From: Candidatus Polarisedimenticolia bacterium
GTDB lineage: Bacteria > Acidobacteriota > Polarisedimenticolia > Gp22-AA2
NCBI GenBank assembly: GCA_036001465.1
Contig: DASYUH010000075.1
Coordinates: 1 to 40,328, forward strand
Direction of reading: 5' to 3'
DNA: 40,328 bases
The position numbers and the translations under genes are program-made. Position 1 is the first letter of the stretch; the number at the start of each line of letters is the position of its first letter. The notes below the pieces were generated by a model that saw only the letters and a list, made by a program, of their open reading frames with translations, was not told the DNA's origin and did not search any database. Shown here piece by piece: positions 1-14,501 of this stretch.

Positions 1-210
1 CGCGAAGCTCTGCTGGGAGAAGGTGCGACCGCACCAGAGGCAGCGGAACCGGGGCACGACCCGACCGTCGCATCGCCGCCGGTAGGAGCCGTGGGGAAGA
101 TGGCGCAAGACCCCGGTACGTCGCCGGTGCTCAGCGCACTCGGGCCACGGGCAGAAGGCGGGGAGGAAGGATCCCGGGCGCACCAACTCGACGATGACGG
201 CGCGGTCCAT
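1..210 (-). CDS. Transposase, N-terminal part (runs off the left edge)
   Basis: Reading the minus strand from ATG at 208-210 gives an open frame of 70 codons that leaves the window at base 1. The protein begins MDRAVIVELVRPG and carries a zinc-ribbon: CPWPEC near residue 20, then a basic stretch (HGSYRRRCDGR) and CLWCGRTFS near residue 58. A paired-cysteine ribbon followed by an R/K-rich linker and CGRTFS is typical of the N-terminal DNA-binding part of IS1-like and related DDE transposases. The catalytic domain lies outside the window, so the exact IS family cannot be fixed. A terminal inverted repeat lies 135 bp upstream at 345-368, which fits an IS end. Part of the family assignment is inference. 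Confidence 0.75.
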   Translation of the reverse strand, partial: MDRAVIVELVRPGSFLPAFCPWPECAEHRRRTGVLRHLPHGSYRRRCDGRVVPRFRCLWCGRTFSQQSFA

Positions 211-344
211 GACCGGCATATATCAAGATGCGGGCCAGAATGCAGATCACGCCGAGATTCGGAGTCGTGCCTCAGTCTAGCCGTCGCGCCGTTCGCGGGT
301 GAACCCTTGAGCCAGGACAGTTCCCGCCCGTGAACGCCTCTCTT

Positions 345-368
345 CTCCACACTCTCGGCGCCACTATG
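345..368 (-). repeat. IS terminal inverted repeat
   Basis: The minus-strand reading starts CATAGTGGCGCCGAGAGTGT. All 24 bases match the left end of the element at 13655-13884; its right end matches at 21 of 24. The outward end is CATAG and faces the interrupted lipoprotein gene. Confidence 0.75.
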
Positions 369-12799: not shown

Positions 12800-13543
12800 C
12801 TAGCCGAACAGACCGCCGGCCGCGCCGGTCGTGTAGGCCAGGGCGAGGCCGGCCGCGACGCTCCCCAGCCCCGCCGCGGCGCGAAGGGCGAGAGTCACCC
12901 CGACCGCGCTGCGCCGCGCCAGGACCAGCGGCACGCCGAGGAGGATGCTCATCACGGCCATCCCCATGGTCGTGCCGGTGCCGAAGAAAAGAAGATACAG
13001 GCAACCGCCGAGGACCGTCGGCACCGTCGCGAGGACCAGGAGCGCCAGCGCCGCGCTGCCGGCCAGCCCGTGGACGCAGCCGACGAGAAACGGGCGAAGG
13101 GCAATGCGCGCGGGATGCGGGTGCCGGTGCGGCGCCGGGACGGCCGCCCCCGCCCCCTGCGGATGGCCGGCATCCGTTACGTGCCGTGCTGCGTGGAAGT
13201 GGAGATGGGCGTGGGTCACGCCGTCGTGCCGGTGCTCGTGCACGTGCAGCCGATCGCGCAGCGCGCCACGCAGCGCCAGCACGCCCAGGCCGACGAGCAT
13301 GACCGCCGCCGCGAGCTCGAACAGCATGGCGAGACGGTTCGGGACCGCGGAGCGAAGCGCGAGCGCCACACCGCCGGCTGCGCCGATGGCCAGGGCGTGA
13401 CCGATTCCCCAGGACAACCCGTTCGCGAGGGCGCGCCTGAGCCCGTCCTTCGATGCGCCCAGGGCGGCGACTGCCGCGAGGTGATCGGCGTCGAGAGCGT
13501 GCCTGAGACCGAGGATGAACCCGAGTGCGAGAGTTGCGGTCAT
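12800..13543 (-). CDS. Nickel/cobalt transporter (NiCoT/UreH-type), His-rich loop
   Basis: 247-aa inner-membrane protein with about six hydrophobic segments. GLRHALDADHLAAVAALGAS contains the HX4DH signature of nickel/cobalt permeases in the first segment. A His-rich cytoplasmic loop follows (HVHEHRHDGVTHAHLHFHAA, then HRHPHP), likely metal-binding. VGCVHGLAGSAALALLVLAT is a second conserved stretch shared with UreH/HupE-like transporters. ATG at 13543 is chosen because the signature begins 10 residues later; an upstream extension is non-conserved. No nickel enzyme is present in the window. Confidence 0.86.
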   Translation of the reverse strand: MTATLALGFILGLRHALDADHLAAVAALGASKDGLRRALANGLSWGIGHALAIGAAGGVALALRSAVPNRLAMLFELAAAVMLVGLGVLALRGALRDRLHVHEHRHDGVTHAHLHFHAARHVTDAGHPQGAGAAVPAPHRHPHPARIALRPFLVGCVHGLAGSAALALLVLATVPTVLGGCLYLLFFGTGTTMGMAVMSILLGVPLVLARRSAVGVTLALRAAAGLGSVAAGLALAYTTGAAGGLFG

Positions 13544-13654
13544 CGAAACGCTCAAGAGGTCCCCCTGGCTCCGCGCTCGCGTCAATGTAGCATCTGTTCC
13601 TCCCGTTTGCACGCCTCCGGGGGGTACGCCGCCATGAACCTCCCGTCCAGCGCT

Positions 13655-13884
13655 CATAGTGGCGCCGAGAGTGTGGAGAGCCGAAGCCGCCCGGATCGCG
13701 TTCAGGGACAGGAAGTGTCCGCGGTCAACCGTCCGCCCGTGAACTGTGGGAGGCGGCCTTCTGGCGTCATTCCCGGATTCAGGGGCAGACGGTTCCTGGC
13801 CCGCGCTTTGACAGGGGGAGCCATGGACCGGGAGGTCGTCCCCTGGGCGGTGCCCGTCGCTTCCACACTCTGAGCGCCACTATG
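13655..13884. mobile_element. MITE-like non-autonomous element with IS ends and 9-bp target duplication
   Basis: 230 bp bounded by inverted repeats: left end CATAGTGGCGCCGAGAGTGT, right end (complement) CATAGTGGCGCTCAGAGTGT; 21 of 24 bases match. The left end equals the IS end at 345-368 over all 24 bases. Flanking 9-mers are TCCAGCGCT (13646-13654) and TTCAGCGCT (13885-13893), a target-site duplication with one mismatch. It holds no recognisable gene; an internal word CCGCCCGTGAAC also occurs near the IS end (322-335). A 9-bp duplication fits IS1-like elements. The insertion lies at the dps stop codon. Confidence 0.75.
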
Positions 13885-13885
13885 T

Positions 13886-14368
13886 TCAGCGCTCCGAGTG
13901 CGCGTGCGCCTCGACGAACCAGAGGTCCTTGTCGAGGCTGCGTGAGATCTCCGTGAAAATGTCGGCGGTGTCCTTGTCTCCCACCTCGTCGGCCTGATTG
14001 ATCCCTTTGCGGATCTCCTCGCCGAAGTAGGCCAGGCTGCGCGACAGGGCCTCGACATGCTCCTTGCCGCCGGCGATCGCGAGCGGGTATTCGGGGAGAT
14101 GTGACCGCTTTGCCACGGCGCGGACCGTTCCCTCCGCGATGCCGCCGAGCTGGACGATGCGCTCGGCGATCAGGTCGACGTGCCCGCCGGCGTGCTCGTA
14201 GACCTGGTCGAAGAGCTCATGCAGCGCGATGAAGGTCGGCCCCTTAATGTTCCAGTGGGCCTGCTTGGCGTGCGTGACGAGATCCACGGCCTCCGCCAGC
14301 CGCTCCTGGAGCAGGGCCGCGATCTGCGTGCGGACCTTCTCGGACAAGTCGTTCTTCGTCTTGTACAT
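13886..14368 (-). CDS. dps: Dps-family ferritin-like DNA-protection protein
   Basis: 160 aa, the usual Dps length. The interfacial ferroxidase ligands are present: H38 in AKQAHWNIKGPTFIALHELF, H50, D54, and D65 and E69 in HVDLIAERI. Dps forms cytosolic dodecamers that oxidise and store iron and protect DNA from peroxide. The N-terminal MYKTKNDLSEKVRTQIAALL is short and only mildly basic. The RBS AGGGAG is 7 nt upstream. The stop TGA (13886-13888) lies inside the right target duplication of the MITE. Confidence 0.95.
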   Translation of the reverse strand: MYKTKNDLSEKVRTQIAALLQERLAEAVDLVTHAKQAHWNIKGPTFIALHELFDQVYEHAGGHVDLIAERIVQLGGIAEGTVRAVAKRSHLPEYPLAIAGGKEHVEALSRSLAYFGEEIRKGINQADEVGDKDTADIFTEISRSLDKDLWFVEAHAHSER

Positions 14369-14470
14369 GGTGTCGCTCCCTTTCGCCGGTCACCCAGGGT
14401 TTCAGAACCGCGTTCGCGGGGCGATGTGCGGCGAAGCCATTATCCTCCGAAATCTCCTGAAGGCACGAGG

Positions 14471-14501
14471 TTGACGGAACGGCCCCCGCCGCGCCTACAA
14501 T
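14471..14501 (+). promoter_or_regulatory. Possible sigma-70 promoter of the cNMP/flavoprotein gene
   Basis: TTGACG (14471-14476) and TACAAT (14496-14501) each match the consensus at 5 of 6, though the 19-bp spacer is long. Transcription would start near 14508, leaving a leader of about 29 nt. Confidence 0.45.

Follow-up and report, generated by a model that had tools for sequence, protein, structure and literature searches.

The window, i.e., the whole stretch of 40,328 nucleotides that was analyzed, harbors a short element of 230 bp lying between a gene coding for a Dps/ferritin-like protein (dps) and one coding for a NicO-type transporter; at its beginning it also carries part of an IS copy of the same family (Table 1). 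Only 73 codons of the transposase gene of this copy fall inside the window, the rest being located beyond the contig end.

Table 1. Features of the 230-bp element, of its surroundings and of the partial IS copy (coordinates of the window)
Feature	Position	Strand	Remarks
IS copy, left part	1..368	-	Broken off at the contig boundary; positions 1-219 correspond to transposase codons 1-73
Terminal inverted repeat of the partial IS copy	346..368	-	From the end-pattern search
NicO-type transporter gene	12800..13543	-	Weak Pfam match below the cut-off; start codon chosen by us
Target-site duplication, copy 1	13646..13654	.	TCCAGCGCT; from comparison of the flanking 9-mers
MITE, 230 bp	13655..13884	+	Contig C75; left ~190 bp of the IS fused to its right ~25 bp
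Left terminal inverted repeat, 23 bp	13655..13677	+	CCGAGAG form, like IS left ends
Subterminal block with palindrome	13699..13746	+	Common to the IS left end
Transposase-start remnant	13823..13873	+	ATG plus 15 codons, into a TGA within the right repeat
Right terminal inverted repeat, 23 bp	13862..13884	-	TCAGAG form, like the IS right ends on C38 and C72
Target-site duplication, copy 2	13885..13893	.	TTCAGCGCT; includes the dps stop codon (minus strand)
Dps/ferritin-like protein gene (dps)	13886..14368	-	MITE directly behind

The element is short, lacks a transposase gene, is delimited by inverted repeats in common with the IS and exists in several copies, which bears out its preliminary description as a 230-bp MITE. 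Its two arms are complementary at 21 of 23 positions (91%), and the left one matches the IS end at 344-368 without a mismatch (25/25), as anticipated when the two elements were proposed to share their ends; within the window, three occurrences of the end pattern were counted. The 9-mers on either side of the element coincide at eight positions out of nine. The insertion left dps intact, because the copy of the duplication on the dps side contains the TGA of this gene; a single base distinguishes the other copy. Among the matches listed, seven relatives of dps terminate with a TGA no more than about a codon away from the same point, without the element. A search for the empty site in relatives gave no clean one, dps being conserved and its downstream neighbor not. 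The search of positions 13000-14500 against Rfam returned no family, no promoter-like or terminator-like site was found at 13600-13950, and the RNA folding of the 230-bp element (z of -1.62 and +0.86) was not exceptional.

The search for these ends was extended, as had been suggested, to the whole genome (G000, 4.58 Mb in 114 contigs), counting ends with up to three mismatches. It yielded 20 ends, 12 of which delimit six short elements, two a complete IS (on contig C40) and six IS copies broken by contig ends (on C38, C44, C71, C72, C75 and C94). The lack of further copies, or of a full IS with matching ends, had been set in advance against the reading as a MITE; neither holds, since further short copies and one such IS do exist. 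In 99 other genomes, the 23-bp end pattern was nearly absent, with only three isolated matches that contained three mismatches apiece.

The short elements measure 230 bp on C75, 229 bp on C10, 217 bp on each of C20, C32 and C109, and 98 bp on C44. Alignment with the IS shows that all five of 217-230 bp follow its left end for ~190 bp, past the start-codon region and into the first few transposase codons, and then jump to its final ~25 bp; read from this arrangement of their sequences, they are deletion derivatives of the IS which, being devoid of a transposase gene, would depend on the IS for a transposase supplied in trans. The two positions at which the left end differs from the right one are the same in all five, and the start codon of the transposase is ATG in three, GTG in C109 and ACG in C32. 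When four MITEs were compared (C32 was excluded as a near copy of C20, and the four sequences are not independent), identity was 98-100% in the end repeats, 74% in the palindrome block, 71% in the start-codon block and 51-57% in the spacers. The more distant MITEs diverge from each other by about one third, suggesting that some of them are old. The coexistence of conserved ends and drifting interiors would be expected if only copies with good ends had been mobilized. It is also worth recording that the MITEs hold an open frame of 15-16 codons ending with STL and a stop, similar in C10 and C20 and deprived of its ATG start in C32; since C32 has ACG and C109 has GTG at the start, no gene is claimed for it. 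Furthermore, most element ends read outward as CACTATG, so that insertion brings an outward ATG at the extreme edge of the element; in the window, this ATG (13655-13657) is in frame with the NicO-like gene, the frame being open from 13657 to 12800.

The 9-bp target duplication claimed for the window element was evaluated on 22 elements of the wider family (16 IS and the six short ones), whose tips were located by means of the inverted repeats, taking CA as the first two bases; eight of the 24 scanned IS loci (L048, L062, L075, L078, L082, L086, L087 and L091) were dropped, having no consistent tip or reaching a contig end. The 9-mers flanking the elements were identical in six cases and agreed at seven or more positions in 10, to be compared with one in 462 mismatched pairings at the latter threshold; exact duplications of 4-8 or 10-13 bp were found in none of the 22. 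Together with the eight positions out of nine in the window, this supports the claim. The duplication is perfect (9/9) in the short elements on C10 and C20; no duplication was found at C109 (2/9), at the 98-bp element on C44 (1/9) or at the complete IS on C40 (3/9). The row of contig C66 is not independent, because its tip was shifted by one base since this gave a 9-bp duplication. The locus concerned (L042; G000:C66:26855-27853) belongs to the same genome but is more distantly related, with one TGA in the matched stretch, ends reading GAAAATGCCC and an exact 9-bp duplication.

The complete IS is 1375 bp long, has imperfect repeats of ~23 bp beginning with CATAGTGGCGC and carries one uninterrupted transposase frame of 386 aa, with no stops; throughout the family, lengths range over ~1.25-1.58 kb, with a single frame of ~386 aa. 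The transposase comprises a zinc ribbon, a helix-turn-helix and an RNase H-like core, the latter containing D142, D228 and D275. The zinc ribbon recognized in the preliminary description is thus present, and its cysteines are invariant in 25 sequences (with one gap at C23), as are D142 and D228 (25/25). The position that aligns with the catalytic E of IS1 is occupied by D in 19 of the 25 sequences and by N in the other six, and is followed seven residues later by an invariant R. An RNase H-like core can be recognized, by its strands and helices, in the AlphaFold2 model of the relative L077 (mean pLDDT 80.9, pTM 0.75). The solved chains that VIA-align superimposed best on this model were the ISCth4 transposase (Z 12.2, rmsd 6.0 over 234 residues) and retroviral integrases (Z ~10), matches that may be taken to support the presence of such a core only. 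The Foldseek search against the PDB gave no match at E <=0.001, the top rows being mostly ribosomal proteins, and the sequence search of solved structures returned only two chance-level rows.

Relatives of the transposase were found in 29 of the 199 genomes searched (its own genome included), and 28 of these 29 belong to the same class or closer. The scan of named contigs, performed with a profile of nine closer transposases (the 17-sequence alignment being too diverse for this purpose), revealed 19 loci: 14 in Acidobacteria, two in contigs assigned to an unclassified bacterium and one each in Eisenbacteria, Myxococcota and Bacteriovoracaceae. Relatives were also sought among plasmids and viral contigs, and none was found in either. 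In the genome G038, a MITE-like element of 273 bp (L189 100-372, contig C134) matches, in its ends and palindrome, the IS of the same genome at L080; its flanks hold no clear duplication. A remnant of 46 bp, made up of two inverted end sequences two bases apart, was observed in another genome (L190, G034:C145:84046-84091).

Different explanations have to be considered for the short elements and for the family to which they belong. The idea that the former represent chance repeats or assembly artefacts might draw on the several IS copies that stop at contig ends, as is typical of a draft assembly; however, all six short elements are internal to their contigs and differ from each other in their flanks, and neither the reversed pattern (in the genome) nor the end pattern itself (in 100 shuffles of the window) gave any match, so that the probability of this idea is practically negligible. 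As to the family, published accounts (jointly, PMC3985635, PMC10969869, PMC8101967 and PMC12428005) describe the E. coli IS1 as 768 bp long with two frames and repressed by InsA, which has the same DNA-binding domain as the transposase; they also report that duplications of IS1595 members are usually of 8 bp and, in a review, that autonomous elements mobilize MITEs in trans. One possibility is full membership of the element in the established IS1 family. Indeed, the NCBIfam IS1 model matches 15 of 17 homologues (E threshold of 1, lowest value 7.2e-11), and when the profile is aligned with that of 11 IS1-like proteins, the 277 columns covered (probability 99.1 and E 4e-19, versus a probability of 0.1 for a reversed control) span the zinc ribbon, the helix-turn-helix, the catalytic core and the C-terminal tail. 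The 9-bp duplication, which is typical of IS1, points in the same direction. On the other hand, the score of the complete IS against the NCBIfam IS1 model is 28.9 bits, well under the curated cut-off of 100 (26.7 bits for ISL3, cut-off 180), no Pfam transposase model is above cut-off, DDE_Tnp_IS1 is absent from the families listed for the 17 members even when E values as high as 1 are admitted, and D or N stands where IS1 has E. The length of 1375 bp and the one frame also contrast with E. coli IS1; the two-frame organization of the latter is not decisive, since single-frame IS1 members exist. The IS1 set used for the profile derives from 11 of 15 loci with a frame of suitable length (6 of 10 for ISL3, 17 of 18 for IS1595); the two members checked are both above the Pfam DDE_Tnp_IS1 cut-off, and one of them reaches 93.8 bits against the NCBIfam cut-off of 100. 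On balance, full membership seems improbable to us; what stands of the "IS1-like" label in the preliminary description is the distant relationship, not the membership. Affiliation with IS1595 or ISL3 is still harder to sustain and very improbable: weak N-terminal matches to the IS1_IS1595_Zn and ISL3 models do exist, and the profile match with IS1595 has a probability of 93.6, but the latter is confined to 88 N-terminal columns, the genome contains no DDE_Tnp_IS1595 match, none of the 22 elements shows an exact 8-bp duplication, and the profile comparison with ISL3 gives only 1.6. Among the DDE transposases, the one described here is best placed with IS1, as a distant relative, in a family that looks undescribed: it has no name in the Pfam and NCBIfam models, i.e., the libraries compared, and the listings of the literature search contained no description of it. 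A separate IS1-like transposase (L107, G000:C40:113620-114180) exists in the same genome; it scores 78.9 bits with the IS1 model and is above the Pfam DDE_Tnp_IS1 cut-off.

A further question concerns the 16-base palindrome near TGTCCRCSGGCGGACA, which is matched at 13 or more positions within the left 150 bp in eight of 16 IS copies (0.7% of shuffles); its consensus was drawn from the same elements on which it was scored, so that the fair comparison is with right ends and gene interiors, where it was found in none of 16 in either case. The complete IS matches it at only 12 of 16 positions, and the best matches in the six short elements, from 10 to 14, indicate that it is partly kept. It might be that the palindrome only regulates the expression of the transposase and persists in the MITEs as a leftover with no role in their movement, a reading to which we give an even chance. 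Its location in the IS copies, inward of the left end and ahead of the transposase start, as well as the repression of IS1 itself by InsA, fits with regulation; nevertheless, the MITEs make no transposase, yet their palindrome block is more conserved than the spacers in the (non-independent) sequences compared above. More tentatively, and with considerable doubt, one could speculate that this IS typifies a family not yet described, sister to IS1 and centered on one class of Acidobacteriota, with a D-D-D/D-D-N site and requiring the left-only palindrome as an assembly or enhancer site in addition to the repeats; if this were true, such a requirement would explain why the whole left end is kept in the MITEs.

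The element of the window shares its ends with the IS and has the structure of a deletion derivative, and the family presents 9-bp duplications, several copies, and ends that are kept while the interiors drift. Very probably, it is a non-autonomous deletion derivative (MITE) of a local IS family distantly related to IS1, presumably mobilized by the IS transposase. According to the mechanism that we propose, an intact IS copy would produce the transposase, which might bind the repeats of the MITE and then cut it out or copy it, both cut-and-paste and replicative modes being conceivable; the MITE would have been inserted through a 9-bp staggered cut generating the duplication. The insertion point coincides with the stop codon of dps, which was restored by the duplication. 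Binding, cutting and mobilization in trans are steps that we infer, the last of them from the shared ends. As a MITE, the element is ordinary and its interest consists mainly in the addition to the catalogue of such elements. Nonetheless, it exposes an IS family unnamed by Pfam and NCBIfam with clear ends, a target length and an altered third catalytic residue, so that copies of this family in draft Acidobacteriota genomes can be annotated, and the D/N variation raises the question of how IS1-type transposases tolerate the loss of the usual glutamate.

In comparison with known systems, the family resembles IS1 in the order of the zinc ribbon, the helix-turn-helix and the RNase H-like core, in the 9-bp duplication and in the C-terminal blocks, which align (TPAMRLGLT..PWSW here, TPAM.AGIT..VW in IS1); it differs from IS1 in its greater length with a single frame, in the D/N replacing E and in scores far under the model cut-offs. 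With IS1595 it has in common an N-terminal zinc-binding region and a single transposase gene, but not the DDE_Tnp_IS1595 domain, and its duplications are of 9 bp; with ISL3, it shares weak N-terminal similarity, whereas the catalytic part fails to align. Like the bacterial MITEs, the element is short, has no transposase gene, bears the ends of a resident IS and is associated with a target duplication; there is no difference in kind from them, and the element described here retains one IS end in full, as far as the start-codon region.
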